DNA of 58,552 nucleotides, from contig JAQVYB010000006.1 of the NCBI GenBank assembly GCA_028708815.1, positions 1 to 58,552 of the forward strand, written 5' to 3'. The notes below the pieces were generated by a model, which ran no database searches, was not told the DNA's origin, and saw nothing but the letters and a program-made list of their open reading frames with translations. Numbering within the stretch: position 1 is the stretch's first letter; each line of letters opens with the position of its first letter. The translations under genes and the position numbers were made by a program. Shown piece after piece: positions 18,063 through 43,867 of the stretch. The DNA comes from Kiritimatiellia bacterium (GTDB lineage Bacteria > Verrucomicrobiota > Kiritimatiellia > RZYC01).

Positions 18063-18192
18063 CTGCCAGTTAACAACAGCGCAAACTATTGTTTGCATTA
18101 AGCAATCCGTCATGATGTCCAGGATAGTATCACAATCCACATTGTTGAGCATGGTGGTCGGGTATCAGAGCGCCTGAAGTCCGACGGATTGC
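18063..18192. repeat. ~130-bp dispersed repeat, copy B (inverted relative to copy A)
   Basis: Reverse complement begins GCAATCCGTCGGACTTCAGGCGCT and ends GCTGTTGTTAACTGGCAG; also contains an internal 10-bp perfect inverted repeat GCAATCCGTC/GACGGATTGC (18102-18111 / 18183-18192). Confidence 0.75.
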
Positions 18193-19088
18193 TAGGGGCC
18201 GGTATGCACATACGGAAAGTCGTAATGCGCCAGGTCCGGCGTACTGATCAATGGGCGGTATCCAAGGCGTTGGAGCCGGTGATATACGGCGGTGGCTTGT
18301 TCCGGATCCGGCGGGACCACATAATCCAGCGCAAAAACAGGCAGCCCGGCATGTTGAACCGCCTCCAGTTTTTTTTCGATCCAAATGCACTCATCGGTGG
18401 TGAGCATACGCGATTGCCCGTGCTTGAAATCCATGGTCGAACGAACCCCTTCCACCAGAACCCCGTCAATTTGCGGGGTTATCAAGGGAAGAATATCAAA
18501 GCCGCGGTTCACCAGAATCACCGCATCCGGCCAGCGGTTGCGCAGCGTTAAAACGAGTTCGGCCATGGCCTCTTTCACGCCGGCGAATGAGACGGGGTCG
18601 GATTGCAACAGCGTTTCCGCCGTATCCAGGGTATCGAGCATAAATCCATCATAGCCGGCGGCCATCAGGCGCGGGGCGACCTCATCGGTCACCAAGCGGC
18701 GCCATTCCTTACTGCGCACATCCACCAAATGATCGCCGGCCCAATCCGGATTGCTTCCAAGCACCCACGATTTATTGCGAATGCCCTGCCAATACATGCG
18801 GAAATCTTCTGCCTCACCCACGCTGAGATAGGCCAGGCAGAGCCGTTTGTTTTTTTCCTCTTTGGTCAGTGGGCCCAATTCATCCGCATCCAGAACAAGC
18901 AGCTCAATCAAGGGGTTTGCCGTCAGTACGTCCCGGTCATTGCCGTAGTAGCAAAGCCAGGCTTTTGCTGCACGCGCCTGCCGTCGCGGCCCCGCATCCG
19001 GATCCCCGCCCCGTAAGACGGTACAACCCAAACTGATGAAACAGCACAACGGAACCAAACAGAGTCGACGGACTGATTTTCTATTCAT
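18192..19088 (-). CDS. GH114-like (TM1410/endo-alpha-1,4-polygalactosaminidase-type) lipoprotein
   Basis: Lipobox-like FISLGC; CYYG...LLVLDADELGPL, AYLSVGEAEDFR, GYDGFMLDTLDTAET motifs. Confidence 0.75.
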   Translation of the reverse strand: MNRKSVRRLCLVPLCCFISLGCTVLRGGDPDAGPRRQARAAKAWLCYYGNDRDVLTANPLIELLVLDADELGPLTKEEKNKRLCLAYLSVGEAEDFRMYWQGIRNKSWVLGSNPDWAGDHLVDVRSKEWRRLVTDEVAPRLMAAGYDGFMLDTLDTAETLLQSDPVSFAGVKEAMAELVLTLRNRWPDAVILVNRGFDILPLITPQIDGVLVEGVRSTMDFKHGQSRMLTTDECIWIEKKLEAVQHAGLPVFALDYVVPPDPEQATAVYHRLQRLGYRPLISTPDLAHYDFPYVHTGP

Positions 19089-22255: not shown

Positions 22256-22303
22256 TTTCCAACCATTGGAAACTTTCCGCACGATTTTTCCAACCATTGG
22301 AAA
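22256..22303. repeat. two-copy 31-bp-period palindromic repeat (TTTCCAACCATTGGAAA)
   Basis: Copies at 22256-22272 and 22287-22303, period 31 bp; same family as 29016-29124. Confidence 0.85.
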
Positions 22304-22356: not shown

Positions 22357-25300
22357 TCAGTATTTGCCGAATTCCTGGTCATCCAGGTTGATGATGTCCT
22401 GCTGATTCACCGGCTTGGAAGCAGGCGTGCCGCCCCAGCCGTCCTTCGCTTTTTTCGGGGGCTTTGCGGGAGCGTTTTCGGCCGGCTTTTTCGAGGACGT
22501 TGCGCCGCCCAGTCTTGCCTGCTGTTTTTGCGAGAGTTTGAACTGCTGCACAAGGCTCTGAAGTTCGCCGGCCTGCGAGGCCATTTCCGTTGCGGCGGAT
22601 GCGGTCTCTTCGGCGGTGGCGGTGTTTTGCTGCGTCACGGTGTCGATCTGTGAGAGACCCTGGCTGATCTGGGCGACTCCCTGAGCCTGCTCATTCGAGG
22701 CGGCGGCAATCTCTCCCACCAGGTCTGACGTTTTGACAATACCGTCCTCAATTTCCTTGAAGGAAGCAGCCGCTGTTTCGGCCACCTTCATGCCGGTTTC
22801 CACCACGCCGCCGGAGTGTTCGATCAGGTCCGCCGTTTCTTTGGCGGCCTTGGCGCTGCGTCCGGCCAGATTGCGCACTTCGTCGGCCACTACGGCAAAG
22901 CCCTTGCCGTGGCGTCCGGCGCGGGCCGCCTCAACGGCGGCATTCAGTGCGAGCAGGTTGGTCTGGAAGGCAATGTCATCAATGACCTTGATGATCTTGG
23001 CAATCTGCTCGCTGGACGAGTTGATCTCCGCCATGGATTTGTTCATCTCGGTCATGTGTTTGTTTCCAACGGTGGCCGATTCACGCACATTGAGCGTGAG
23101 GGCATTGGCCTGCTGGGCATTTTCGGCGTTCTGTTTGGTTTGTGAGCCGATTTCGGCCATGGAGCTGGTGATTTCCTCCAGGGAGGAGGCCTGCTCGGTG
23201 GCGCCCTGCGACAGGTTCTGGCTGCCATCGCTGATTTGTTCTGCTGCGGAAGTGACCTGGAGGACGGCCTGTGCCACCTGTTGGAGGGCTTCATCGAGGC
23301 TGCGTATGGTTTGGTTCACGCTGTCTTTGAACTCGCCGAGTTGTCCCTGATAGCTTCCCTGGATGGCGTGGGTCAGGTCGCCTTTTGCGGCGGCCTCGAG
23401 CACGTCGGCGGCCTCATTCAGCGGCATCACCACGTTTTCGAGCATGAAGTTGATGCCTTCCACCAGTTTTTGGAACTCACCCTGATGCTTGGCGGAGTCG
23501 ACCCGTTCGTTGAGATTGCCCTCGACGGCGCTCTCGGAGAGCTGGGCCACATCCTGCACTACGCTGCGGATGGACGTCACCATTTGTTGCAGCGCCTGGC
23601 CGAGTGTATCCTTGTCGGAAGCAATTTTCACTTCGTTGGTGAAGTCGCCCCTGGCAATGGCCGTGGCGAGGGTCGCTTTTTCGGCCAGCCCGTCTTGCAG
23701 TTGCTTCACGGCTTCGTGGATACGGTTGAAGATGCCCTGCGTCTGGCGGGTATCCTCGTCGCCCTTCTGTACCTCATAGTGGGAGGCAACATCCCCCAGC
23801 GCCATGGCTTCCATGTGGCCGACCAGTTTGCCGACTTCCTCCTGCTGGTAGTCCCCGATTTTTTCGGTCAGGCGGGCCGCCTTTTTCACGACGGTCATAT
23901 CCTGAACAATTTCCAGTACGCCCACGACTTGTCCCTGATTATCCTTCAGCGGTACGCCGGAGTAATCAATATCCAGATCCAGCCCCGACGGATGGGCGTC
24001 TGTTTCACTGCGAACGACGGTTTGTTTTTCCATCGCCTGCGCACAGGCGCATTGTTTCGACTGGCAGTCGGAGGTTTTGAAGCAATCGTAACAGTGTTTG
24101 CCGACCAATGCTTCCGGGGTGGATTGGAGCAGGCCCGCACCGGCCTTGTTCATGAATTCAATGCTAAACTCCTTGTTCATGGTCAGCACCGGCAGCGGAA
24201 TCTGATCAATAAAGCCCACGAGGGTATCCGTCACCTTGTTCACATCGGTCAGCATGGCGGCATAGGCGCCTTGGAATTGGGCGGCCTGTCCGCGCTCGGA
24301 GAGGGCTCCGCGCTGGGCGGAGGAGGCCATGCCCGTGATTTCGGCGCGCAGGCGGGAGAAGACTTCCAGAATGGCCATGAAGGCCGCCCCCACCTCGGCG
24401 AGTTCATCCTTGGAATCCAGCGCGAGCTGTACATCGAACTGGCCATCCTTCACCTTGTTGGCGCCGTCCACGAGTTTACGGGCCCCCTTGGCGATGCGGC
24501 TGCTGACCCACAGCCCGATCAAGGTGGCGCCTATTAGCTGAATGATCGCAGCGATTAAAATCTGTACCACCACCCCGCGTTTCAGCGTGGCAGATTGCGC
24601 CTCCATGGCATAAACCGGTGCCATTACCTCGTCGAGGGGACAGGTCACCATGACCTCAAACTGTTGTTTCCCAGCCCGGACCGGTGCGTAGGCCACTCTT
24701 TTGTATACCCCTTCAAACTCGTATTCTGCCACACCTGCTTCCCCTTTCAGAATATGTGCGTTCAACAGGTCCGCCAGCGCACCGTATTTCGGGACACTGA
24801 CATTCACATTATCCGCTAAAGAGTATTTCGGGTGGGTCACGAGCACCCCGTCGGAATTCAGGAGGGCAGGATAGCCCGTCTTGCCATACACAATATCTTT
24901 GAAGAGGGCATACATGATTCCCCAATCCAGGTTCACGGCCACGATGCCTTCGATCTTGCCGTTCACAAAAAACGGGGTGACGGCACGAATCTCCGGTTTG
25001 CCGGTGTTGACGGCAATTTCCAGCGGCGAGAAGACAATCTCTCCTTCTTTGGCCTTCAGCCCCTCCTGAAACCAGGCGGTATCCTTGCGCGAAATCAGGT
25101 TTTTGTTCAGCACGCCGTTCTTTAGTTTGATGATTTCCAGGCCATCCTTTCCAATCAGGCGTATCTGCGGATAGATATGAACCGGCTTGCCGTCCACCTC
25201 GATGATGGAGGTCTGATAGCGCATCTCCAGATCTTTTTCCAGAATCTGCATGCTGTTGGCGGCCGCTTCTTTGTTCATTTCATCCCAATAGCCGCTCGCA

Positions 25301-26499
25301 CACACCAGCCAGTCCCAGGATTTGAAATAGGTGTAGAAAATGAATTTCTTTCGGCCTTCAAGGAGGTAGCTGACTTCGGAAACGCCCTCGGTATTCAGGT
25401 TGTTGAGCGCCTCCTGGAATTCCTTGATATGGAGGTCCTCGATCGTGTTCTTACCTACCAAGTCGGCGCGCGGATGTACCAGGTAATCCCCTTTGGAATC
25501 CATGACAAACACATAGCCCGTATCGCCGATCTTGGAGCCCAGCAGAGCTTTTTTGAGCACTTCATTATCCTGCTCGGGAATGCCGACATACAAGACGCCG
25601 ATGACTTCCTTCGCAGCGTTGTAGAGGGGGGCATAGGCCGTTACATACCAGGCGTTGACCACAAAGGCCCGCCCGAGAAAGGTTTCGCCGGCCAGAACGG
25701 TTTTCACGACGGCATTTTCCTTGCCGTCGTTTTTCGCGGGAATATAGGTGCCCACCGCGCGTTCTCCATCGAGTTTTTTCACGTTGGTGGCGATGCGCAG
25801 CATGTCGCCCTGCTCGTTCATCCGTTGGAAGATGGTGCAGGTGCCACCCACCAAGGCCGTTACTTCATCCACCAGGGCCGAAGGCTTGTCGAAGGAGCTG
25901 TTCTTTTTGACGGGCGTTCCGCCTACCAGCAGCGTGGGCAGGGCGATTTTGTCTTTCTTTTTGGTGAACTGATTTACGGCCTCCCATTTTTCTGTGGAGG
26001 TGGCGGACAGGGACGCGCCCCCTGCTTTTTTAAGCAGATCCTGCGCCACATTCAGGCTGCTCTGCATGGTTTGTTCGAGCAGTTTCTGCTGGGTTTCACA
26101 GGTGTTAACCAGGCCATCGATCAGCCGGGTCACATCCCGTTCGACCACCCCGTTCCACAGCTTGTTTTCACCTGCCAAGGCGGAAACATAGTCTTCAATC
26201 GCGGGAGAGGCCGCCAATTGGAGAACCGCTTCGCTGGTTCCGTCCAGCACGGTTTGTGCCGCAAGGGCTTCGGCTGCGGCCCCTTTGCCCAGCAATTCAT
26301 TGATCTGGTCGGTCAGTGCCGAGGTGGTGGTTTCTGCTGTTTGTGCACTGTAGCGATTGATTCCCCAGAGGGCGATAAAGCTCAGTATCGCAATGGAGAG
26401 CACAACCAGCGCCACTGTGGTGAGTGTGATTTTCTTGCCAATACGCATACCCGACTCCTTATTCTTGTTTTTTACTGTTTCCCCGGCACAGATGAACAA
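22357..26499 (-). CDS. methyl-accepting chemotaxis protein with very large double-Cache sensor region, HAMP, Cys-rich PAS and MCP signalling domain
   Basis: C-terminal [10 protein letters not shown]...[43 protein letters not shown] hairpin tip; Cache segments [19 protein letters not shown] and [18 protein letters not shown]. Confidence 0.93.
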
Positions 26500-28616: not shown

Positions 28617-28985
28617 AACAAAGTTCCTTTCCGGTTGATTGCCGTTTGCCTTCCACGCCTTGCTTATACAGAAACAACCCTCTTGGCGCAAGATGATTGG
28701 GGCGGCGGGTGCCGGGAGTTTAAGATTGGCTCGCAGAGCCAACGCTGCAAGGCGCGATGATTGATGTGCGGTTGGCTTGATTCATATCCATGTGTTGCAA
28801 ATTACCCGATCGCGCACGGAACTGAAACCCGGCGCGACAGGACCCGTTCGATGACTTGGCGCCTACGAAAAAGGCTTCGCTTGCGACGTGACAGAGAGCG
28901 GCTGGAACAGTAAACTACACGGCACTTTGGGCTGAGCGTTTAATTACACTGGTTCGTCGGGATTGGCGGGCAGGAGGGGCGGGTT

Positions 28986-31900
28986 GTGACTAAAAAATTA
29001 ATGGCATTTTCGAATTTTCCAATCGTTGGAAACTTTTTTGGCGATTTTTCCAATCGTTGGAAACTTTTTCAGCAACTTTTCCAACCATTGGAAACTTTTT
29101 TGGCGATTTTTCCAATCATTGGAACTTTTACTTTGCTTTGTTTTTTGGCGGCATCGTCGTCTTTCGGGGCGGATGGGGATCCGGTGGATGCGGATACGGT
29201 GTATGGGCCGGTGCGCGGGGTGGAGGAATACGGGGTTCAGAATTTCAAGGGGATCCCATTTGCGAAACCACCGGTGGGTGAATTGCGCTGGGCGGCGCCG
29301 CAGGTGCCGGAGGGGTGGACGAATACGGTGGTGTGTACGAATTATTCGGCGGGGTGTCCGCAAGTTTACATGGAGTATGTGAGTCCGACGAATGGCACGG
29401 ATGAGGACTGCCTGTATTTGAATGTGTGGTCGAAGGTGGGGGCGACAAATCGTCCGGTGATGGTGTGGTTGTATGGCGGTGGTTTTTCTGCGGGGGGCAG
29501 TTCGCTGCCGAGTTATGACGGGACATTCCTGGCGCTGAAGGATGTGGTGGTGGTTTCGTTTAATTACCGGTTGGGGGTGCTGGGCTTTCTGATGACCGAT
29601 GAGTTGTTCGCACGTGAAGGAGCCAGCGTGGGCAATGCGGGGTTGCTGGATCAGATTCTGGCATTGGAATGGGTGCGGGATAATATCGCGGCGTTTGGTG
29701 GGGATCCGGACAATGTAACGCTGTTTGGTCATTCGGCGGGAGCGGCAAGCGTGAGTCATATGCTGGTGGCGCCGCAAGCGAAGGGCTTGTTTGACAAGGC
29801 GATTTGTCAGAGCGGTTCGGTGCCGTCGAACCCGTTTGAATGCGACAGTGGTTCGTGGACGAATGCGATGTTGAAGGGGGAGGCCCTGATGGTGGCACTG
29901 GGTGTGTCATCCCTGGATGAATTGCGTATGGTTCCGTCGAGTAATGTGGTGGAGGCGGCGGAGTATCTGCTGAATACATTCTGGCTGCATTATGGTCCAA
30001 TGATGGATGGGGAGGTGGTGCGCAGTGATTTTCGGTCGCTGTTCGAGGGGGATGATTACCTGATGAGTCCGGTGCCCCTTTTGACGGGCGTGACGGGGAA
30101 TGATGGTCTGGGGGCGGGGTTGCCGGTGTCGAATGTGGCGACGTATGCGGCGTGGGTGGCGGATTGCTTCAAGTCGAATGCTGCGGCGGTCTATGCGGCG
30201 TACCCGGCGACGACGGATGAGGAGGCGGTGGCGCTGCAGGCGTATGTGGGGACGCTGGCGGTTTTTGCGGAGCCGCACCGGTTCATGGCGCGTGCACTGC
30301 GTGATGCGGGGCAGCCGGTTTATTTTTATCATTGGGATTATCTGCAGCCGACAGTGGAATGTGAGTTGTATGGGGCGTATCATTCCGTGGAGTTGCCTTA
30401 TGTGTTTAATAACATGCTGTTGGAACCGACGTTTACCAATCGTGATTACATTCTGGCGGATCAGATTTCAGATTACTGGGTGAATTTTGCAACGACGGGA
30501 GATCCGAATGGGGCCGGACTGGATGCGTGGCCGCAGTTCGGGTCGAATGAGACGGCCTTGGTGGTGGAAACGAATGCGTCGTATTCCACGGTGACGAACT
30601 GGAACGAAACGGAAGTGGATTTCTTTGAGAGCGTGTATCCGCGCAGGGACTATGATGGTCCGTTGCAGTATACGAATACGATTGCGCAGGCGCGTGCGGG
30701 CATTGCGACGTTGATGGCGGAGAATAATATCCCGGGTTGCACGGTGGTGCTGGTGGAAAGTCAGCGCGTGGTGTGGGCGGAAGGGTTCGGATTTGCGGAT
30801 GTGGCTGCGCAAACACCGGTGACGACGAATACGGTGATGCCGATCGGGTCGGTGTCGAAAATGCTGACGGCTCTGATGGCGTTGCAGGTAGTGGATGAGG
30901 GTGCGTTTGATCTGGATGCGTGCATTACCAATTATGTGGATGATTTTTCGATGCTGGGCCGTTTTGCGGGGCAGACGAATGGTTGGACGATTCGGACGAT
31001 GCTGGATCATCATGCGGGCTTGCCGGGGGATATGTATAACGGGGCGACGGGTGCGGGCACGAATTACTGGTCGGGCTATACGCAGTGGTTGATTGATTTG
31101 TTTCATGAGGACTATCCGCTGTATCCGCCGGAAACGATCTCCAGTTATTGCAATAGCGGGTTCAATGTGGTGGGTGAGGCGTTGGGACGTCATTACGGGG
31201 TGGATTATACGGTGCTGGCGGTGACGAATTTGTTTTTGCCGCTGGATATGCCGTATTCTTCGTTTCTGCCGACGGATCCGCTGATTGCCGCGAACATGAC
31301 AACGACTTACAATCATGATGGATCGCCGGCGATTCCGATGACCATCAATATGCCGGCGACGGGCGGCGCCTTTTCGCGTCCGCTGGACATGGCAAATGTG
31401 ATTAAGATGCTTCTGGCGGATGGCATGTTCGGGGGCAGTGAATATTTGTCGACGAATGCCTTGGCGCAGTTCGGCACCTTCACGCCGGGTGCGCTGGATG
31501 TGGATAATTTCTTTAAGCCGGGGCTGGGCTTAGACTCGGTGGATAGTCCGGTGATGAGTTATGCGGGACGCTGCTGGTTGAAGAACGGGTCAACAGGAAA
31601 AGCCGAGGCGCTGTTTGAAGTGCTGCCGGATCAGCAACTGGGCGCCTTTGTGAATATCAATTGTGCGAATGACACCACGTTTGAAATCCTGAATATTGTG
31701 CTGACGAATGCGATCTTCGAGAAAAGCGGTTTGGTGCGTCCCGTGGTGACGCCGCTGCCGGATGTTGCAGAAACAAACTGGTCGTTGGCTGAGTTGCAGG
31801 CGATTGAGGGGCATTATGTGACAGGGAGTGGCGTGAACCGGTTTGTGGCGGAAGCGGATGGCTCGTTGACATTGTACGAAAATGCGCAAAGCAGCAGTCC

Positions 31901-34900
31901 GGTGGTGACGACCAATTATCGCCCGCATGTGAATGGGCGCTTCTATGTGCCGGGGGCGAGCGCGCAGCAGTTGTTGTTCACGAATAAGGGGGGCGAGGAT
32001 GTGATTGTTCGGTATGGCAGCAGCGGCAGTTACAAAGATGAGGTACGTGCGGGGGGCTATGTGGAAGCCCTGTATGGCACGCGCTATGAGCCGCCGGTGA
32101 TTTCGGAAGCCTGGTCGAATCGTTGCGATACATTCTGGCTGGCGGATAACTTGATGTATAACGATTTCTTCATGGCGGAAGGCCAGCCTAATGGCTGGTT
32201 GCTCAGTACGGAAAATGGTTTTCTGACGATTGAAGGAAATGGATATGGGGTGTTGGTTCCTTCGAATGATTCGCTGGCGTTTGTGCAGGGCTATTCCACG
32301 CGCGGGGATAGCTGTGTGCGAATGGAAACGAATGCGGCGGGCAATGAAGTTCTGTGGTTCGGCGGCTATCGCTGTATGCGTCTGGAGGATCTTCCGGCGA
32401 TCACGAATGGCGGCACGGAGAGTGTCTCACTCGTAATGCATACGAATGCGATGCTGGTTTGCCCTGCGTCTGGTGTGGGTTCTCGGATGTCGGTGGTGCT
32501 GGGGTCGAATGCGCGGGATGTGGTGGTGCATGTGGTGAGTCTGGAATCCGCATCGGTGGTGGCGGTGGGTACGGGCAGTGTGGAATGGGTGTGTGATTCC
32601 ATGCCGGCCATTATCAGTTTGAGTTCGCCGGATGCCGTGACGGTCGATGTGAAGGCGGTGGATACCACGTACCTGCGCCAATGCATGCAGCAGACGCTGC
32701 AGCAGTATCCGCAGGTGCCGGGGTTCAGTGTGAGTGTGCAGGAGCCGGGTTTTGGGCCGTTACTGGTCGCGGAGGGGTATGCACAAGTGGACCCGCCGAC
32801 GAGTGGCGGTAATGTGGCATTGGGGGTGGATGATCACTTTCATATCGCCAGTATTTCTAAAACCTACACGGCTGCCGGCATTTTCCTGCTGCAGGATCGC
32901 GGTCTTCTGAACATGACCAATACGGCGGCGGAGCTGGCGCCGGAATTGATGGTGCCGCGCGGAGATGAGATCTCCTTGTCGCTCTTGCTGGAGCATCGCA
33001 GTGGCTTGCCGGATGGGAACAATACGCCGTGGATTGATGGTAAACTGATCGAGGATCCCTTTTTAGAATTTTCAGTGGAGGAAATTGTGGCGGTGGCGTC
33101 GAACATGTATCCGAACCTGATGTTTGAGCCGGGGAGTGATTTTTCTTACACCGATACCGGCTTCAACATTCTGGCGCGCATCATTGAAAATGTGAGTGGC
33201 ACGAATTATCAGGCGTTTATCCGCAATGAAATTCTGGCCCCGCTGGGATTGATGAATACGTTTGTTCCGCTAAACAGTGAGTCGAATGTCCCGGCGCCGG
33301 CGGTGCATGCCTACGAGGTGCATGACGGAGTGTACCAGGATCGCACGGATTATTGTCCATCGGTGGAATTCGGCTGCGGCAGTATTCAGTCTACGTTGAG
33401 CGATTTGAATTCGTTTATGTATCAGCTCTTTTGCACCACCAATTTGCTGCGCGATGCATCGCGGGAGCAAATGATGAGCAATGTGACATCCCTTGGTTTT
33501 TCGGATTACGGGCGCGGATGTGAAAATGATTTTGATTTTGGGTGGGGTCATAACGGGGCGATGTGGGGTGCGCTGAGTCGGTGTAACGTGGATACGAATA
33601 CCGGGGTGGTTGCGTCTTCGATGATGAATTTTATGTATGATGAGAATGATCCGGATAAGTTCGCGAACTGCTCCTATACGATGCAGAGCGCGATGGGCGT
33701 GGCAAAGAATCTGTTGGGTTATCCTGCCGACCTGTTTGGTCAGACCGAACCCATGGTCAATGTGCGTCAGCCGTTGGTGCGTCAGGGTGATTCGGTGAAT
33801 ATCATGCCGGTACGGTTGAATTTTGTGACGAACTGGGTGATCAGCGGATTGCCGGAACCTTTGGGCTATGATGCCGCCAGCGGAGCGATTACAGGAGTCT
33901 GTGCGGCATCAGGGGATTTCCCCCTGACTCTGGTGGCTGAAAATGCGTATGGTATCACCACCAATACACGGGTGTTATCGGTGGCGCTGGGCTATACCAA
34001 TACCATGGCCCAGGCGCAGGCCGCCATTGAGTTCGCGTATGACATGAATGAGTTTAAGGGGGGAAGCTGGGTGCTGGTGGATGAGAATGGCATCGTGTGG
34101 TCGGGGGGATACGGTTGGGCGAATCACGAGGAGACGACCCCGGCGACGGCGGACACGGTGTATCGCATTGGATCACTGTCTAAATTATTCACCACGGTGG
34201 CGACGCTGCGGGAGTATGATCGGGGCCATCTGACGCTGGATGCGGCGGTGTCCAATTATATTGATGGCTTTGAACTGAATGTCCGTCCGGACACCAATCT
34301 GCCGCCGATCAATTACACCAACAATCCGATTACGGTGCGGTCGCTGCTGAATCATTTGTCCGGTATGCCCAGCACCTACATGCGCCATGCGATGACCACC
34401 TCGCCCACGCTGGATGGTTTTTTCCCAACCTATCTGATGGAAATGATGCTGGGGGTCTACACGGATTTTGCCTGTGCGCCGGTTGATTTCTTTGCGTCTT
34501 ATAACAACAATGGATTTCAATTTGCGGAATATCTGATTTCGCAGGTAACGGATGATTCGCTGGAAACCTATGCGCAGACGAATCTGTTCATGGCGCTTGG
34601 AATGAATCGGACAGGTTTTGATATGGATGCGGCGGCGATTACGAATACGCTGGCGGAGTCGTTTGATCGGGAACTGAATCCGATGCCGAAGGAGTATGTG
34701 AACTGCCTGGGATCGGGCGGCGCGTTGAGTTCGGCCCATGACATGGGCGCTTTTATCAGTATGCTGCTGAATCGCGGGGCGTCGGACTATGGGCCGGTGC
34801 TTCTGACCAATACCGTGCTGGAAATGATGTCGGATCAAACCACGGGCATGGTGCTGCAGGTGGGTAATAAATATTTTGCCACGGGCCTGGGCTGGGATTC

Positions 34901-37900
34901 GGCGCTGCTGCCCAGCTTTGAGTATGCGGGAGGGGGCTGTGAAAAGAACGGAGAGACCACGACGTTTGCGGCGTATATTGCATTGGCGACCAATCAGCAT
35001 CTCGGCGTGTTCGTCGTGAAAAACTCACCGGAGGCCCGCAATATTACCGAGCTGGCGAAATACATTCTGGAGGCGGCCATTGAGGAAAAAAGCGGTTTGG
35101 CAAAAACCAATGAGGCCGTTATTCCGCCCTCACCGTTTGTTGGTGATACGCAGACGAATGTGGATGCGCTGGCGGGGTATTATGTAAACAATGCCGGCGC
35201 GGTGCGCCTGAAAGCAGGGACAAACTGTTTGCTGTATGGCGGTGCCCCGCAGTACTTGCGGGCGGATGGATGGTATGGTGCTGCAACGAATGCGGACTTC
35301 CTGATTGGGTTCACCAATGTGCAGGGGCACCTGTTTACTAAATTGCGGATGGAGTATGAGGGTTATATTGAATCGGCGGTAACCGGTGAGCGGTATGATC
35401 CGCCGGTGATGACCAATGCCTGGACCAATCGGATTGATCAGTCATGGCTGATTCAGAGCCTGCCGAGTGTTTCCTACATGCGTACGCACCCGGGCAGTCT
35501 GATTGCACGCACCTGGATGACCAACGGCATGCTGATGTTCACGGTGCCCTCCATTCTGCTGGATGATTACTCGTTTGGAGATTACGGGATGAATGATTTT
35601 GTCATCGAGCCTTTTGATGATGACATGGCGTTTGTGCAGGGAGCCGGCGGAAAGATGCCGTGCTGTGTGCGCGGGGATAATGAGACCCTGGTGGCGGACA
35701 GCTATTACTGGCAGAATGTGGCGGCGATCCCACACATCGCCATGGGCGCCCCGACCAACTATGCGCCGTATCCGCTGGTGACGGATTGGTTTGCGTTTGA
35801 TGCCGTGGCGGGCACGGAGTACTTCCTGAATCTGGGCGGCAGCGTGACGGGTTTGTTCCTGCTGGTGGATGCAGACGGGCGTTATCTGGGTGATGGTTCA
35901 CAGGAAACCGTCCTGCGCTGGACGTGTCCCTCCTCGGGCGTGTATTACGCGGGTGTGAATTTTCCGGAAGATGCGCCTGCGGAAGTCACCGTGCAGTTCT
36001 ATAACTACACCAACACCATTGCGCACATACGGAGTTGGATTGAAGAGGCGATGACGAATGAAGGCGTGATGGGTGTTTCGGTGGCGCTGCTGGATGATCA
36101 GGAGATCGTCTGGGCGGAAGGATTCGGCTATGAAGACCCGGCAGTCGGCAAAATGATGTCGACGAATTCGGTGTTTCATATCGGGTCGGTTTCGAAAGCA
36201 TTCACGGCGGCTACGGCGTTACGCTATTTGGATCGCGGAGCCTTTGCACTGGATGACGCGGTGACCAATATTGTGCCGACACTCCGTTGGCGTGAACGGT
36301 ACGGTGCGACGAATGTGGTCACGGTGCGCCATCTGCTGGATATGTATTCGGGGCTTCCGGGTGATCTGCTGCGCGGTGGTTTTACCACGGTGCCGCGCGA
36401 CATCGGTTATGCGAATGTGACGAACGACCTGGCGAACACCTGGCCGATTTATCCGGTGGATTACATGTGGGATTACTGCAATGCGGGCTTTGTGTTGATG
36501 GAAGGGATTATTGAAGCCGTCGCGAATACCGGTGCGATCGTTCGCAGTTTCGCGGATATTGCGGATGATGAGCTGTTGGAGCCACTGGGTATGGAGGCCA
36601 CATCGTATCTGTGCGATGAAGCGGAGATCAGTAACAATCTGACGGTGGCCTACTCTGAAAGCGGCGAACGGATGCCGCCGGAGTATATTAATATTTATGG
36701 CACGGGAAGCATGTATAGCCGCCCGACAGAACTGGCCAGGTTCATGGCGATGATTTTTGCGAACGGCGGGCATATCCTGGAGCCGAATACGGTGCGCGAA
36801 ATGACATCGCCGCAGGGAACGAATGCCGTGTTCTTTGATTACTGGGATTATGTGCCGGGGCTGGGTTGGGATTCGGTGTCGTGTGCGCAACTGGATTATG
36901 CCGGTCGCAACTGTTCCAAGAGCGGTGGAACCCTCACGGAAACAGCGATGATTCACCTGTTGAATGAGCATGGACTGGGCGCGGCGCTTTGTTCGAGTAC
37001 ACCGTCGGGCATTCCGTCGGAGGGTGCCATTGAAATGCTGCGGTACGCGTTGCTGGATAAGGAAGGCGTAATGTGGCCGACGAACATCATCACCCTGCCG
37101 ATGGCCACGCAGACCGTGAGTCAGGCGGAGCTGGATGCACTGGAGGGTATTTATGTCGGTGGCGGTGGATACGATAAGGTGGTTGCACGTGAGGGATATC
37201 TCGACATGCAGATGCTGGTAGGTTTTGACGGTCCGGAGGTCACCAATATTACGCTGAGAACAAACGGCTGGTTCGTCAGCGGTTCTGCAAACTCCGCCGT
37301 TTCATTCACGAATGTGGCGGGTCGGCAGGTCATGCTGACGCACCAGTTGGTGGAGGACGGTACGATTACGTCTCATTCGATGCGCGGTGATTTATATGAT
37401 CCGCCGGCGATCCATCCCGCGTGGACGGCACGCACGAATGAGTTGTGGTATGTGCAGAATGAGGATGTCTACAGTTATATGCCCCTCTCGGGAACGACGC
37501 CGCAGATTCAGTTGTCCATTTCGGATGGGGTGTTGATGATGGCGGGCGGGTTGACGGGCGTAAAGGTGCTGGTGGCCACCAATGATTCACAGGCCTGGGC
37601 TTACGGGCTGCATAACCGGGTGGATTCGTGTGTGCAGGTGCTGACGAATAACGGGAACGAAGCACTGCTTTATGCCGGTTACATCTTCAGTCGCGTGGCG
37701 CAGATGGAGACGGGCAGCGTGACCGGATCGATCGATGCGGCCGGGAACTCAGGACGTTACGAAGTGCAATTGCCTGATGCCGGCGTGGCGGGCGGGGTGA
37801 CGGATGTGGTCTATGAAGTGACACTGTCCGGCGCACCGACGAACTTCGTGCTGCGGATTTATGGAAGTGACGGGGCCCGGTTGCAGGATGAACGGACCGG

Positions 37901-39557
37901 CGATGGGCTGCTTTATCTGCAAAGCGGCGGCGGAACGCACTATCTTTACGTGCAGCCACTGCCGGACGGCGTGCAGACCGGACAGTATGTGCTGACCTTT
38001 GATTGCCCGGTGCTGCTTCGTGATTTGTCGATGAATAACGGTAAGGTCTCGCTGGTATGGCAGGGGGAAACCAATACGACGTTTACGCTCGAATCGGCGC
38101 TGCGTCTGGATGTGACCAATGCGTTTCTGCCGGACATCACAAATATCGTCCCGGTTGGACCGTTGAACTCGATTACGAATGACATCGGACCCGATAAAAG
38201 CAGGTTCTATCGTGTGATTGAAGAAGCGGATAACTATTCCAATCGCTATGGCCGGATCGTTTTGATTTCCGATATGCATATGAGTCCGTTTGCGTCTTCA
38301 TTTATTGTGGGGCAGTTGCTGGTGTCGGATGTGACGGAATGGGATCTGGTCTTGCAGTCGGCCACGAATGGATACTACACGGAGGACGCCACACAGGCCG
38401 GGTATCCACCCACGACGCCCATGATGTATGCGTCCGCGCTGACCAATGCGTATGCGGCCTGTCCGCGTCCGGATGCGGTGATTATGCCCGGTGACTTCGT
38501 CTATTACTATTTCGAGAATTTCTACAACCAGATTACCGGGGATCCCAATACCAACAACTGGAAAATCCTGCTTCTCAAGATGTATGAATATGCCCTGCTG
38601 AAAGTGAACCAGACCTACCCGGGCGTACCCGTTTATTTTGCATTGGGGAATGATGACACGTTTCTGGCCGATTACGACATTGACGTGGGGGATGCCTTTC
38701 TGGCGGAAACCGCCCCCCTGTTCCACAGGATGGGCTTGAGCAACGTGACGGACTACACCTCGTTTGCGGCCACCTATACCAACGGCGGAAATTATTCCGC
38801 TCCGTTTATCGGCGGTGAACTGGTGGTGTTGGAAACATCCTTCTTCAGCAGCAAATATCCGGGCGGAATGGCCGAAGCAAGCAATCAACTGGCGTATCTT
38901 GACGCACGCTTGTCCGATTGTACCGCACAAAGCAAACCGGCATGGATTCTGATGCATATCCCGCCGGGCGTGGATGGATTTGCCACCTGGCGGGAATGGC
39001 GAAACGGAAATACCAACACCGTGGTGTCCGACTGGAAAGAGCCGTTGGTGAGGCAGTTTAACCAAATTATAGCTGATTATCGTGACACGGTAAAAACGAT
39101 TATCTGCGGCCACTACCATGAACGCAGTTGGCAAATGGCCAATGATCCGGCCACATCGAACGTTACCGTGGGGATACAGGTGATGAACGGGATGCTGGCC
39201 AATCACGGCAACAACTCAGGTTTTACGGTAATGACCTTCGATCGTAAGACGCTGGAACCGATTAGAGAATACTCTTACAACCTACCGAATAGTTATGCCG
39301 GAAAAACCGGTCCGGCCCTGTGGAATGACCGCTTCAGCATGAATGAAGGTTTCGGCATCGACGACCTGTCGGCGGCAAGTTTGCTTTCGGCCTGGAGTAA
39401 TATGGCCTTGGCGGGATCGGCCGGTTATGATTACTATAACCAGCAATACAGCGGAGGACGTCAGCCGTATCTGATGAGCAGTAACAGCTGGCCAGTGTAC
39501 CATGGGCTGATTCGCTGGATTGAGGAAGATCAATTTTTGGAGAATGTGGTGCCGTAG
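28986..39557 (+). CDS. giant secreted multi-enzyme: carboxylesterase type B + four beta-lactamase/S12-like serine hydrolase domains + calcineurin-like phosphoesterase (3523 aa)
   Basis: GTG start after AGGAGG; EDCLYLNVW and FGHSAGA (Ser at 29733); four SxxK motifs (30849, 32850, 34173, 36186) each followed by a Y-x-N/D-type motif; ISDMHMSP, ALGNDDTF, ICGHYHERSW phosphoesterase motifs; single uninterrupted frame. Confidence 0.93.
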   Translation: MTKKLMAFSNFPIVGNFFGDFSNRWKLFQQLFQPLETFLAIFPIIGTFTLLCFLAASSSFGADGDPVDADTVYGPVRGVEEYGVQNFKGIPFAKPPVGELRWAAPQVPEGWTNTVVCTNYSAGCPQVYMEYVSPTNGTDEDCLYLNVWSKVGATNRPVMVWLYGGGFSAGGSSLPSYDGTFLALKDVVVVSFNYRLGVLGFLMTDELFAREGASVGNAGLLDQILALEWVRDNIAAFGGDPDNVTLFGHSAGAASVSHMLVAPQAKGLFDKAICQSGSVPSNPFECDSGSWTNAMLKGEALMVALGVSSLDELRMVPSSNVVEAAEYLLNTFWLHYGPMMDGEVVRSDFRSLFEGDDYLMSPVPLLTGVTGNDGLGAGLPVSNVATYAAWVADCFKSNAAAVYAAYPATTDEEAVALQAYVGTLAVFAEPHRFMARALRDAGQPVYFYHWDYLQPTVECELYGAYHSVELPYVFNNMLLEPTFTNRDYILADQISDYWVNFATTGDPNGAGLDAWPQFGSNETALVVETNASYSTVTNWNETEVDFFESVYPRRDYDGPLQYTNTIAQARAGIATLMAENNIPGCTVVLVESQRVVWAEGFGFADVAAQTPVTTNTVMPIGSVSKMLTALMALQVVDEGAFDLDACITNYVDDFSMLGRFAGQTNGWTIRTMLDHHAGLPGDMYNGATGAGTNYWSGYTQWLIDLFHEDYPLYPPETISSYCNSGFNVVGEALGRHYGVDYTVLAVTNLFLPLDMPYSSFLPTDPLIAANMTTTYNHDGSPAIPMTINMPATGGAFSRPLDMANVIKMLLADGMFGGSEYLSTNALAQFGTFTPGALDVDNFFKPGLGLDSVDSPVMSYAGRCWLKNGSTGKAEALFEVLPDQQLGAFVNINCANDTTFEILNIVLTNAIFEKSGLVRPVVTPLPDVAETNWSLAELQAIEGHYVTGSGVNRFVAEADGSLTLYENAQSSSPVVTTNYRPHVNGRFYVPGASAQQLLFTNKGGEDVIVRYGSSGSYKDEVRAGGYVEALYGTRYEPPVISEAWSNRCDTFWLADNLMYNDFFMAEGQPNGWLLSTENGFLTIEGNGYGVLVPSNDSLAFVQGYSTRGDSCVRMETNAAGNEVLWFGGYRCMRLEDLPAITNGGTESVSLVMHTNAMLVCPASGVGSRMSVVLGSNARDVVVHVVSLESASVVAVGTGSVEWVCDSMPAIISLSSPDAVTVDVKAVDTTYLRQCMQQTLQQYPQVPGFSVSVQEPGFGPLLVAEGYAQVDPPTSGGNVALGVDDHFHIASISKTYTAAGIFLLQDRGLLNMTNTAAELAPELMVPRGDEISLSLLLEHRSGLPDGNNTPWIDGKLIEDPFLEFSVEEIVAVASNMYPNLMFEPGSDFSYTDTGFNILARIIENVSGTNYQAFIRNEILAPLGLMNTFVPLNSESNVPAPAVHAYEVHDGVYQDRTDYCPSVEFGCGSIQSTLSDLNSFMYQLFCTTNLLRDASREQMMSNVTSLGFSDYGRGCENDFDFGWGHNGAMWGALSRCNVDTNTGVVASSMMNFMYDENDPDKFANCSYTMQSAMGVAKNLLGYPADLFGQTEPMVNVRQPLVRQGDSVNIMPVRLNFVTNWVISGLPEPLGYDAASGAITGVCAASGDFPLTLVAENAYGITTNTRVLSVALGYTNTMAQAQAAIEFAYDMNEFKGGSWVLVDENGIVWSGGYGWANHEETTPATADTVYRIGSLSKLFTTVATLREYDRGHLTLDAAVSNYIDGFELNVRPDTNLPPINYTNNPITVRSLLNHLSGMPSTYMRHAMTTSPTLDGFFPTYLMEMMLGVYTDFACAPVDFFASYNNNGFQFAEYLISQVTDDSLETYAQTNLFMALGMNRTGFDMDAAAITNTLAESFDRELNPMPKEYVNCLGSGGALSSAHDMGAFISMLLNRGASDYGPVLLTNTVLEMMSDQTTGMVLQVGNKYFATGLGWDSALLPSFEYAGGGCEKNGETTTFAAYIALATNQHLGVFVVKNSPEARNITELAKYILEAAIEEKSGLAKTNEAVIPPSPFVGDTQTNVDALAGYYVNNAGAVRLKAGTNCLLYGGAPQYLRADGWYGAATNADFLIGFTNVQGHLFTKLRMEYEGYIESAVTGERYDPPVMTNAWTNRIDQSWLIQSLPSVSYMRTHPGSLIARTWMTNGMLMFTVPSILLDDYSFGDYGMNDFVIEPFDDDMAFVQGAGGKMPCCVRGDNETLVADSYYWQNVAAIPHIAMGAPTNYAPYPLVTDWFAFDAVAGTEYFLNLGGSVTGLFLLVDADGRYLGDGSQETVLRWTCPSSGVYYAGVNFPEDAPAEVTVQFYNYTNTIAHIRSWIEEAMTNEGVMGVSVALLDDQEIVWAEGFGYEDPAVGKMMSTNSVFHIGSVSKAFTAATALRYLDRGAFALDDAVTNIVPTLRWRERYGATNVVTVRHLLDMYSGLPGDLLRGGFTTVPRDIGYANVTNDLANTWPIYPVDYMWDYCNAGFVLMEGIIEAVANTGAIVRSFADIADDELLEPLGMEATSYLCDEAEISNNLTVAYSESGERMPPEYINIYGTGSMYSRPTELARFMAMIFANGGHILEPNTVREMTSPQGTNAVFFDYWDYVPGLGWDSVSCAQLDYAGRNCSKSGGTLTETAMIHLLNEHGLGAALCSSTPSGIPSEGAIEMLRYALLDKEGVMWPTNIITLPMATQTVSQAELDALEGIYVGGGGYDKVVAREGYLDMQMLVGFDGPEVTNITLRTNGWFVSGSANSAVSFTNVAGRQVMLTHQLVEDGTITSHSMRGDLYDPPAIHPAWTARTNELWYVQNEDVYSYMPLSGTTPQIQLSISDGVLMMAGGLTGVKVLVATNDSQAWAYGLHNRVDSCVQVLTNNGNEALLYAGYIFSRVAQMETGSVTGSIDAAGNSGRYEVQLPDAGVAGGVTDVVYEVTLSGAPTNFVLRIYGSDGARLQDERTGDGLLYLQSGGGTHYLYVQPLPDGVQTGQYVLTFDCPVLLRDLSMNNGKVSLVWQGETNTTFTLESALRLDVTNAFLPDITNIVPVGPLNSITNDIGPDKSRFYRVIEEADNYSNRYGRIVLISDMHMSPFASSFIVGQLLVSDVTEWDLVLQSATNGYYTEDATQAGYPPTTPMMYASALTNAYAACPRPDAVIMPGDFVYYYFENFYNQITGDPNTNNWKILLLKMYEYALLKVNQTYPGVPVYFALGNDDTFLADYDIDVGDAFLAETAPLFHRMGLSNVTDYTSFAATYTNGGNYSAPFIGGELVVLETSFFSSKYPGGMAEASNQLAYLDARLSDCTAQSKPAWILMHIPPGVDGFATWREWRNGNTNTVVSDWKEPLVRQFNQIIADYRDTVKTIICGHYHERSWQMANDPATSNVTVGIQVMNGMLANHGNNSGFTVMTFDRKTLEPIREYSYNLPNSYAGKTGPALWNDRFSMNEGFGIDDLSAASLLSAWSNMALAGSAGYDYYNQQYSGGRQPYLMSSNSWPVYHGLIRWIEEDQFLENVVP
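29016..29124. repeat. four-copy 31-bp-period palindromic repeat (TTTCCAAYCRTTGGAAA) inside the start of the giant ORF
   Basis: Copies at 29016-29032, 29047-29063, 29078-29094, 29109-29124. Confidence 0.92.
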
Positions 39558-40393: not shown

Positions 40394-43300
40394 ATGAATA
40401 TGAAGGAAGTAGTTAGATATTGCATATATATAATGGGGTTAATATGCGTTTTTGGAGCGCATGGGAATCTGCTGGACAATCCGGGGTTTGAGGGACCGGT
40501 TTCAACCAATGCGGCAGATGATCAGAGCAATTGGTATACGGAGCAGCCTGATTCCACGCAGGCCAGTAATTGGCAGCAGCACTCGGGAAGTCAGGCACTG
40601 CTTGTGAGAGGAACCTGGGGCGGTACGCCGGCGTCTGGTGGTTTTGAACAGAAGGTTTCGGTTGTTGCCGGGAGTGAATACGGCCTGAATTTCTATTATT
40701 ACTGGGATAACGGCTTCACCTCTTTACAGCACGATGTGGTCGTTGAGTGGCTGGACGATTCCGATCAGGTGCTGGAGAGCCTACGTCATGAAATGGATAT
40801 AGGCGATCCAGGTGTGGGGTGGGCGTTTGGAGGCTGGCACAAATGTACTGATTTTGCGCTGAAGGCTCCGGCGGGTTCTGTACGAGCAGAGATTCGGTTT
40901 GAATGGAGCGGTATTAGTACGTATGGCACATTCTATGTGGATGATGTGGATTTTTCAGATTCGGTCGTTGTTTGTTATGACGAGGATTTTTCTGTAACAG
41001 GCGCCGGGGATTATGCCTTTGATTTTGATTATGCCTGGTTGAGTGATTTCAGTGCCACGGCCAGTCAGCTTGAACTGATTTGGTCAGGTGAAACGGGTGA
41101 ACTTGGAAAAGAAACCTACTCCATAAACCAGGTTGGTAATGCGGGAATCCTGCACTCATCCGGGTGCTATTTTCTGTTTGCGCCTGCGGGAGCAACGACC
41201 CTGCAGGTGCGGGTGATTTCCTTGAATCTGAATGATGCCTCCAATCTGCTCGTGTCCAACACCGTGCTGACCGAGGTTTCAAGCAACTGTCGCGAGTTGA
41301 AGAATAACAGTTTTGAGAGGCCCTTTAACGGGAGTTCTCTGGGCAACTGGGTAGTGGCTGGAACCTGTGAACGGGGAACAAGAGTGGTTCTTCATGGTGA
41401 TGCTGCACTGCAATTCTCCAGCTCGGTCGGATCGGTTCGTCAGGTGGTGGGTGTTGTCGAAGGAAATACCTATGAACTGGTCTTTCAACATGTGCGGGAC
41501 GCCGGCCCCATGAATCGGACCAACCGTGTGCAGGTGCTGTGGTTGACGGCCCTTGAGGGGGGGGCAGTGATATCGAATGATGACTCGGATATTGGATGCC
41601 CCGCCGAAGGATCCGACTGGCAGCGCGTGATGCTGGGTGGATTGACTGCTCCTGCGGGAGCGGTGGCGGCGGAGATCTTTATGGAGAGTTCTGCCTCGGC
41701 AGGAAGTGCAGCATACTTTGTGGATGATATGTTTTTCCGAGAACCCGCGAACTTCTTCCATCGAAGCACGACCAACATACTGGATTTGGCCGGAAATCCA
41801 TTCATGATTCGCGGTTTGGCTTTGAGTGGGTGGTTTTTTCCTGAAGCATATATGTTCGGCATTGATCAGGGAAACGGCGGGCATATCAACAGCTACACGC
41901 AGATCCGCAACCGTTTTGAAGAAATTCTGGGGTCGGAGGAGCAATCGGAGCTATTCTGGGATGCCTACACAACGAATTTCCTGACCGAAGCCGATGTGGC
42001 TTTGGTTGCTTCCAAGGGGGTGAACACCGTTCGCCTTCCGTTCAATTTTCGCGAACTAAGTCCTGAAAACAATGAAGGCGCGTATCGAATGAAAGGCTTT
42101 GAACAGCTGGATCGCGTCATTGAATGGTGCAAAAATCAGGGGGTCTACGTCATTCTTGATATGCACTCCTGCCCGGGAGGAAACGCGCCGGTGAATTCGG
42201 GGGACAGCGAGTATGTCTATTATAATTCGGACTGGGGCAAGGAGGCCATGAAGGCTTGTCTGTGGCGGTTTGATGATGACTACAATGACATGACCGGCCG
42301 TACCCCGGAATCCAATGTCGAGCGCACGGCGGCCATTTGGCGGTTCATTGCGGAACGGTATCGCAACGAAACTCAAATTTTGGGCTATGAGTTGATCAAC
42401 GAGCCGTTTCTGGATGGTTCGGATGATCAAGTGGGTCCGACGTATCACATTAACTCTACCAATTTTGAGGGGCAGGTGATTCGTGATGCCTTCGTGAAAG
42501 TTTCGGATGCCCTGCGCGAGGTGGACGATCGACACCTGTTCTTTGTGGAGGGAGATATGTTTGCTGAGTGGTGTGATAATTTGATGCCGCGTTGGGATGA
42601 TAACATGGCCGTGGCCTTTCATCGGTACTGGAAGACGAATGCGACGGATTGTCTGAATGATTATATTGAACTGCGTGATACCGAGCAGGTTCCCCTATGG
42701 CTGAGTGAGTCGGGGGAGAACTCCAATCCGTGGTGCCGTGAGTTGTGGGAACTTTTGGAAGAACACAACATCGGTTATACGTGGTGGACTTGGAAAAGAA
42801 TGGGTGGCACATACGGAGGTTTCATAGGTGAACTGCCGTCCAGTTTTGAATACTGCATCAATAATCTGTGGAACGCAGCCGTGGATGATCGTTTGTTCGA
42901 AGCCGGTTTGTTCGATACGGCTGCCGCGCTGAACACCGAGCAGTGCGAAGAGCAGGCGGGCTATTTTGCCGCCCTGTTCGAGCCGTGGTTTAGTACGGAA
43001 ACACGGCCGTTTCGATCGCATGTGATCCCGGGCTTGATTCACTTCGTGGATTATGATGTGGGAAACTGGAGCAATGCCTATTACGACACCGAATATAAAT
43101 CGGATTCCTTTTGGAATCCCACCGATTACAATGAAGGCAAGGTTTACCGTAACGATGGAGTAGACATCTTCACGTCGTCTGAAGGATGCGGCTATGTGGT
43201 GGAATATGTGGCGGATAATGAATGGCTGAAATATACTCTCGACCTCAAACATCCAGGCATTTTCGATATCAATGTGCGCGTAGCCAGTGACGTGGATACG

Positions 43301-43867
43301 GCCCAGCTTCAACTCTTGCTGGATGGTGCACCCATCACTCCGATACTCGATGTGCCCGATTCAGGCGGGTGGAGCGTCTATACGGATCTGAATGCCACCA
43401 CGGAGATTGCCCTTTCCGCCGGAACGCATGTTCTGGAGTGCCGTTTTCCCAAAGGTGGCGTGAACATAAGCAGTGTCGAATTTCAACTTAGCGAATCAGG
43501 TTATGTGGATTATGACGCCGATGATATGGATGATCATTGGGAAATTGCCTGCGGGGGCGACTTGTTGCCCGCCGATGACCGGGACCATGATTTAATGAGC
43601 AATGTGCAGGAGTACTATGCGGATACTGATCCGACCAATGGCGCTTCGCGGTTATGTGTTGACGTATCGGTGAATGGAAGTGACCTGATCGTAATGGTGC
43701 CGATCAGTTCCACCCAGCGGGTCTATTCTGTTGAATACAAAATGAAGCTGTCCGATTCTCAGTGGATTGATCTTGTTTCGAACCGGATCGGAAGTGGCGA
43801 CGGATTGACGTTGATGCAAACCAATTCATTGAACGGATATTTCCGAGTCAAAGCGGGAACGCCTTAA
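40394..43867 (+). CDS. modular secreted GH5-like glycoside hydrolase with N-terminal CBM-like domains, CBM6-like domain and Ca-binding/TSP3-like C-terminus
   Basis: LLDNPGFEGP (CBM4/9-like) start; NTVRLPFNF, VILDMHSCPGG, GYELINEPF (acid/base NEP), PLWLSESGE (nucleophile), CBM6-like YVADNEWLKYTLDLKHPGIFDINVRVAS, DYDADDMDDHWE...DHDLMSNVQEYYADTDPTN. Confidence 0.88.
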   Translation: MNMKEVVRYCIYIMGLICVFGAHGNLLDNPGFEGPVSTNAADDQSNWYTEQPDSTQASNWQQHSGSQALLVRGTWGGTPASGGFEQKVSVVAGSEYGLNFYYYWDNGFTSLQHDVVVEWLDDSDQVLESLRHEMDIGDPGVGWAFGGWHKCTDFALKAPAGSVRAEIRFEWSGISTYGTFYVDDVDFSDSVVVCYDEDFSVTGAGDYAFDFDYAWLSDFSATASQLELIWSGETGELGKETYSINQVGNAGILHSSGCYFLFAPAGATTLQVRVISLNLNDASNLLVSNTVLTEVSSNCRELKNNSFERPFNGSSLGNWVVAGTCERGTRVVLHGDAALQFSSSVGSVRQVVGVVEGNTYELVFQHVRDAGPMNRTNRVQVLWLTALEGGAVISNDDSDIGCPAEGSDWQRVMLGGLTAPAGAVAAEIFMESSASAGSAAYFVDDMFFREPANFFHRSTTNILDLAGNPFMIRGLALSGWFFPEAYMFGIDQGNGGHINSYTQIRNRFEEILGSEEQSELFWDAYTTNFLTEADVALVASKGVNTVRLPFNFRELSPENNEGAYRMKGFEQLDRVIEWCKNQGVYVILDMHSCPGGNAPVNSGDSEYVYYNSDWGKEAMKACLWRFDDDYNDMTGRTPESNVERTAAIWRFIAERYRNETQILGYELINEPFLDGSDDQVGPTYHINSTNFEGQVIRDAFVKVSDALREVDDRHLFFVEGDMFAEWCDNLMPRWDDNMAVAFHRYWKTNATDCLNDYIELRDTEQVPLWLSESGENSNPWCRELWELLEEHNIGYTWWTWKRMGGTYGGFIGELPSSFEYCINNLWNAAVDDRLFEAGLFDTAAALNTEQCEEQAGYFAALFEPWFSTETRPFRSHVIPGLIHFVDYDVGNWSNAYYDTEYKSDSFWNPTDYNEGKVYRNDGVDIFTSSEGCGYVVEYVADNEWLKYTLDLKHPGIFDINVRVASDVDTAQLQLLLDGAPITPILDVPDSGGWSVYTDLNATTEIALSAGTHVLECRFPKGGVNISSVEFQLSESGYVDYDADDMDDHWEIACGGDLLPADDRDHDLMSNVQEYYADTDPTNGASRLCVDVSVNGSDLIVMVPISSTQRVYSVEYKMKLSDSQWIDLVSNRIGSGDGLTLMQTNSLNGYFRVKAGTP

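Follow-up and report, generated by a model that had tools for sequence, protein, structure and literature searches.

A conserved open frame predicted to hold six hydrolases on one exported chain in a Kiritimatiellia bacterium

The stretch of DNA analyzed here, called the window, comprises 58,552 nucleotides of a Kiritimatiellia bacterium whose genome is a 4.0 Mb draft in 272 contigs. On its forward strand, a single open frame runs without interruption from a GTG start at 28986 to a stop ending at 39557 and encodes a poly-hydrolase of 3523 aa (~384 kDa, pI ~4.4). Its modules follow one another in the order esterase, S12a, S12b, S12c, S12d, tail, and phosphoesterase, all on the forward strand. 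A preliminary description, made from the letters of the window, had proposed this frame, the list and order of its domains, and the positions of four SxxK sites. The frame is as described, Pfam profiles (COesterase, four matches to PF00144, Metallophos) bear out the domains and their order, and the four sites at 30849, 32850, 34173, and 36186 are exact. Elsewhere in the window, the reverse strand carries a 1380-aa chemoreceptor with Cache, HAMP, PAS, and MCP signaling domains (22357-26499), upstream of the frame, and a GH114-family glycoside hydrolase gene (18192-19088; PF03537).

The first 62 residues (28986..29171), ending in ...TFTLLCFLAASSSFGA, form a putative signal peptide region, as indicated by hydropathy and by the N-terminus of an orthologue. 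This is the sole strongly hydrophobic segment of the protein, and hydropathy reveals no convincing transmembrane segment outside the N-terminus. The earlier idea of a secreted array holds, with export predicted from the N-terminal hydrophobic segment. With its repeats, the putative signal peptide is abnormally long. Four palindromic repeats with a 31-bp period (29016, 29047, 29078, and 29109; together 29016..29125) and the pattern TTTCCAAYSNTTGGAAA lie inside it, and the stretch that they encode follows the n-region MTKKL and precedes the hydrophobic core. A Shine-Dalgarno AGGAGG, read directly at 28972..28977, lies 8 nt 5' of the GTG, so the repeats are translated, as FPIVG/FSNRWK/FQPLE/FPIIG.

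The 31-bp palindromes are reminiscent of Rickettsia palindromic elements. The TTTCCAAYSNTTGGAAA pattern has 278 forward-strand sites genome-wide, against 0 for a reversed-pattern control, and a second repeat site in the window lies at 22256-22303. Of 20 further repeat loci sampled in the genome, some fall within open frames and some outside. Several of the sibling giants described below carry similar repeat-derived peptides near their start (FPIIG, FSNHWK, FQSLE). At another locus (L089; G000:C45:2950-4150), two repeat units occur in an open frame resembling fumarase/aspartase (..FQSLENKWADFPIIGKTELMDAVPMTLG..), which may mean that they were inserted in frame into a core enzyme.

The first catalytic module is a type-B carboxylesterase (29193..30623; PF00135 E 6e-109) with Ser250, Asp373, and His466. 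The COesterase profile matches aa 70-546 with 365.7 bits, against a cut-off of 27, and spans model positions 6-514 of 515; the nearest solved structure is p-nitrobenzyl esterase 1qe3 (E 6e-75). The Ser-His-acid triad is complete: Ser and His lie in GHSAGA and AYHSVELP, and the acid is an Asp that two relatives keep.

A search with PF00144 returned four separate stretches (total E 2.7e-165) with per-domain E values, in order, of 1.5e-45, 4.0e-34, 4.7e-37, and 6.6e-49 and scores of 156, 117, 127, and 167 bits, all above the cut-off of 27 bits. S12a, S12c, and S12d are ~560-aa repeat units in which a beta-rich domain of ~190 aa sits behind an S12 core, and they share ~29-33% mutual identity over ~600 aa. 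The S12a core occupies 30663..31718 (SVSK 30849; YCN; KNG) and its C-terminal beta-rich domain, putatively lipocalin-like, 31770..32366. S12c has its core at 33987..35084 (SLSK 34173; YNN; KNG) and its beta-rich domain at 35139..35702, and S12d at 36000..37055 (SVSK 36186; YCN; KSG) and 37107..37679, respectively. S12b (32688..33641; SISK 32850; YTD; HNG) is a divergent DD-peptidase-like catalytic domain that lacks the C-terminal domain seen in the other three, and a sequence search finds its nearest relatives among alkaline D-peptidase and DD-carboxypeptidases. All four units possess SxxK and K/HxG, and the Tyr motif is YxN in S12a, S12c, and S12d and YTD in S12b.

The best sequence matches of S12d are the Lip3 DL-peptidase (9sn1, E 1e-26), Pab87 (2qmi), and IS11 (7spn). 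The same three entries came out on top in a fold search with an AlphaFold model of the unit, which was used solely to back up the sequence matches, the model being of low confidence (mean pLDDT 45, pTM 0.47). For that reason, calling the C-terminal domain a lipocalin relies on weak homology. S12a, S12c, and S12d would be nearest to S12+lipocalin enzymes, and their C-terminal domain may be lipocalin-like, with the eight-stranded beta-barrel of IS11 and Pab87. In IS11, an S12+lipocalin esterase acting on polyesters, the C-terminal lipocalin domain forms a lid over the catalytic cleft (PMC9972953).

Behind S12d, a linker/tail module (37689..38225) that forms the C-terminus of several shorter relatives leads to an acid-sphingomyelinase-like metallophosphoesterase (38253..39122; PF00149) and a weakly matched ASMase C-terminal region (39162..39446; PF19272). 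The Metallophos match (aa 3090-3379) scores 21.6 bits, barely above the cut-off of 21.5, and the ASMase_C match (aa 3393-3487) is slightly under its cut-off; the nearest protein is SMPDL3B (E 9e-13, ~290 aa). The metal-ligand motifs DxH, GD, GN, H, and GHxH are all there, as DMH, GD, GND, MH, and GHYH. The His of GNH[DE], which is catalytic in ASMase, is absent from all four readable chains, which have D or N instead (GNDD in the window and GNND in three relatives). A predicted structure of tail and phosphoesterase, from an alignment of only two sequences, has a pLDDT of 34 and was set aside. Two points of the preliminary description are modified by these results. Its statement that all putative catalytic motifs look intact applies to the main motifs in every module, but the esterase acid is Asp and the phosphoesterase reads GNDD. 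The four beta-lactamase domains that it listed are indeed S12 cores, but they are not all bare, as S12a, S12c, and S12d also bear the beta-rich domain.

A related MAG from another genus of the same family (G001; RZZM01000104.1) contains an intact 3848-aa orthologue with identical module order, the same catalytic motifs, and 66% overall identity. Its record is labeled Spartobacteria bacterium isolate INTA.AUR.068, with an NCBI placement in Verrucomicrobiota. Between esterase and S12a, the orthologue has ~330 extra residues that are missing in the window chain, with an InlB-like B-repeat as the sole recognized feature. NG86 estimates gave dN of 0.10-0.48 and dS of 0.56-2.4, with dS near saturation and not computable for S12d. 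Wherever computable, dN is well under dS, and the window chain is under purifying selection. At synonymous sites, no module has diverged less than the esterase (dS 0.56 for 29193-30623 versus L025, and at least 0.97 for the other modules). On these crude dS estimates, it may have a separate and more recent history, by exchange or acquisition.

The full six-module chain was seen in the window genome and the RZZM01 MAG only. Among 149 genomes of the class, 92 have S12 domains, and the matches listed are mostly short frames, whereas 13 of the 388 phylum genomes have unit-d matches at E<=1e-30 and 4 of 289 have phosphoesterase matches. A widespread annotated family was rejected on these last two counts and on a genome-contig scan that returned the RZZM01 MAG alone.

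Parts of the chain survive in shorter proteins. S12d-tail-PDE forms a protein of 1222 aa (G185), and S12a-S12b-S12d-tail one of 1931 aa (G059), an arrangement also present in G024 with S12b divided over two frames. S12a-b-c occurs with FG-GAP repeats (2091 aa; G001), and G002 has both CE-insert-S12a (1589 aa) and S12a-c-c'-d-PDE with one in-frame TAA. Single S12 units exist as their own genes of ~800-990 aa. In a maximum-likelihood tree, units from different genomes cluster by type, with a, b, c, and d apart; most of these groups are strongly supported, and some inner forks are unsettled. Grouping by type, together with the surviving shorter arrangements, suggests that the chain grew stepwise from single-enzyme genes, by fusion and duplication. 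Because the tail ends several of the shorter proteins, the phosphoesterase most likely joined a C-terminus that was already there.

The same genomes encode sibling giants of 1471-2956 aa in which S12 units are joined to M28, S41, and TAP-like alpha/beta hydrolases, and in G024, G185, and G002 genes for such giants are close neighbors and read in the same direction. Giants of 2348-2956 aa at three loci (L028 1084-9849, L030 4816-13683, and L033 4024-11067) join on one chain an S12-type domain, an S41 peptidase, one or two S12 units, and a TAP-like alpha/beta hydrolase. A further frame, cut by a contig end (L002 2576-6988; G000:C156), has an M28 peptidase and two S12 domains.

The architecture of the window protein is firm, as are its main motifs, the conserved order, purifying selection, and the surviving intermediates. 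Taken as a whole, the locus probably encodes a single exported chain of six tethered hydrolases, of stepwise origin, that may scavenge envelope or plant-polymer debris. Six hydrolases would be held on one exported chain after duplication of the S12 + beta-domain unit and step-by-step fusion of genes. Each module is predicted from its sequence to keep its own active site and to act independently as a tethered enzyme. The first would cleave carboxylic esters and the last phosphate esters or diesters; S12a, S12c, and S12d would be built like Pab87, the Lip3 DL-peptidase, and the IS11 esterase, and S12b would resemble DD-carboxypeptidases. Together, the modules could strip acyl esters, D-amino-acid peptides or esters, and phosphate groups from part-degraded debris. 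Envelope or mixed debris is favored because the modules have relatives acting on esters, D-amino-acid peptides, and phosphate esters and because the siblings carry peptidases; taken alone, this choice of substrate is tentative and argued by analogy. The preliminary description had proposed a covalent esterase array. The linked array stands, but its restriction to esterases fits less well, as S12b is nearest to DD-peptidases and S12d to a DL-peptidase as well as IS11-like esterases, and most of the sibling giants in these genomes are fusions with peptidases.

The esterase and S12 modules might instead form a deesterification array that strips acetyl, feruloyl, and other hemicellulose esters for an adjoining enzyme, a reading that we find rather doubtful. 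A co-directional neighbor gene, considered as context only, encodes a GH5 protein with CBM6/35 (40394..43867, forward strand) and keeps a plant-polymer role open. The nearest solved relatives of this neighbor are GE32, a putative beta-xylosidase, and the CelC endoglucanase, with the family-6 module proteins 2y8k/5g56 for its CBM. That IS11, an S12+lipocalin esterase, hydrolyzes polyesters is also consistent with deesterification. However, an 836-bp gap separates the GH5 gene from the poly-hydrolase frame, and the orthologue contig ends before the position of the neighbor. Moreover, S12b is DD-peptidase-like, it is not obvious what a phosphoesterase would do on xylan, and the siblings pair S12 with peptidases instead. 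The S12 fold, the many sub-threshold matches to NCBIfam class C beta-lactamase models, and the likeness of S12b to DD-carboxypeptidases could also point to beta-lactam resistance or to a PBP-like protein of the cell's own wall metabolism. Such a role is improbable, as the NCBIfam matches among those listed are all under curated cut-offs (e.g. bla_class_C, 165 versus 415 bits) and a fused esterase and phosphoesterase are unfit for a resistance enzyme.

Other explanations question the single chain itself. Clear module boundaries, and relatives with the same modules as separate or shorter genes, would suit a polyprotein precursor cut after secretion into 35-65 kDa enzymes. This seems unlikely: an unsystematic look between the units noticed no conserved cleavage motif, and the conserved order is equally explained by fixed tethering. 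The preliminary description had also raised mis-assembly, and a chimeric read-through of tandem single-enzyme genes might be suspected in a 272-contig draft, some of whose relatives contain breaks (the in-frame TAA in G002 and the frameshift in G024). Yet in an independent MAG from another genus the module order recurs in an unbroken 3848-aa frame of diverged sequence, and the S12-to-PDE linkers align across junctions. The fusion is real by this comparison, and we regard an assembly artifact as extremely improbable.

The tethered chain may also be one case of something broader. It is conceivable, and offered here as speculation, that these bacteria have a lineage-specific class of "poly-hydrolases," exported giants that arose as S12 units were serially fused and shuffled with esterase, phosphoesterase, M28, S41, and TAP-like modules and that take apart one complex polymer in the manner of a covalently linked disassembly line. 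If so, such chains would keep enzyme stoichiometry fixed and need no scaffold of the cellulosome type. The fusion order can be reconstructed because intermediates survive in relatives, and the benefit of tethering is directly testable because every module has a mutable nucleophile or metal site. As a caution, automated annotation will label giants of this kind "serine hydrolase" or "beta-lactamase."

Extracellular enzymes that combine two or three catalytic domains have been described from bacteria, and the window chain is apparently an undescribed variant of such multicatalytic exoenzymes. Literature on giant Kiritimatiellae proteins and on multi-S12 proteins yielded no match to the six-module architecture. 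A conserved chain of six hydrolases, with three unrelated folds and four beta-lactamase-fold serine hydrolases, appears to be undescribed in the literature searched.

Individual modules have close counterparts. The esterase is homologous over its full length to p-nitrobenzyl esterase 1qe3 and other type-B carboxylesterases, with like Ser and His motifs; the acid is Glu in p-nitrobenzyl esterase and Asp373 here, where the module is also joined to S12 units. IS11, Pab87, and Lip3 have an S12 core with SxxK and YxN followed by a C-terminal domain, as in the window chain. Each of these enzymes stands alone, whereas the window chain joins three such units and S12b, and the third motif is KxG in S12a, S12c, and S12d in place of His299 in IS11. 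The phosphoesterase shares metal-binding motifs and an ASMase_C-like tail with SMPDL3B and acid-sphingomyelinase-like phosphodiesterases. Unlike SMPDL3B, which has GNHD, it reads GNDD (GNND in relatives) and is the C-terminal part of a giant chain. Fusion of serine beta-lactamase domains has a precedent in LRA-13 and related class C-class D bifunctional beta-lactamases, in which two such domains are joined (PMC5967600). LRA-13 has two domains, both beta-lactamases, and neither the esterase nor the phosphoesterase of the window chain. In size and setting, the window chain resembles the giant extracellular proteins of PVC bacteria, which PMC12057145 discusses as very large predicted extracellular catabolic proteins and which come from the same superphylum.
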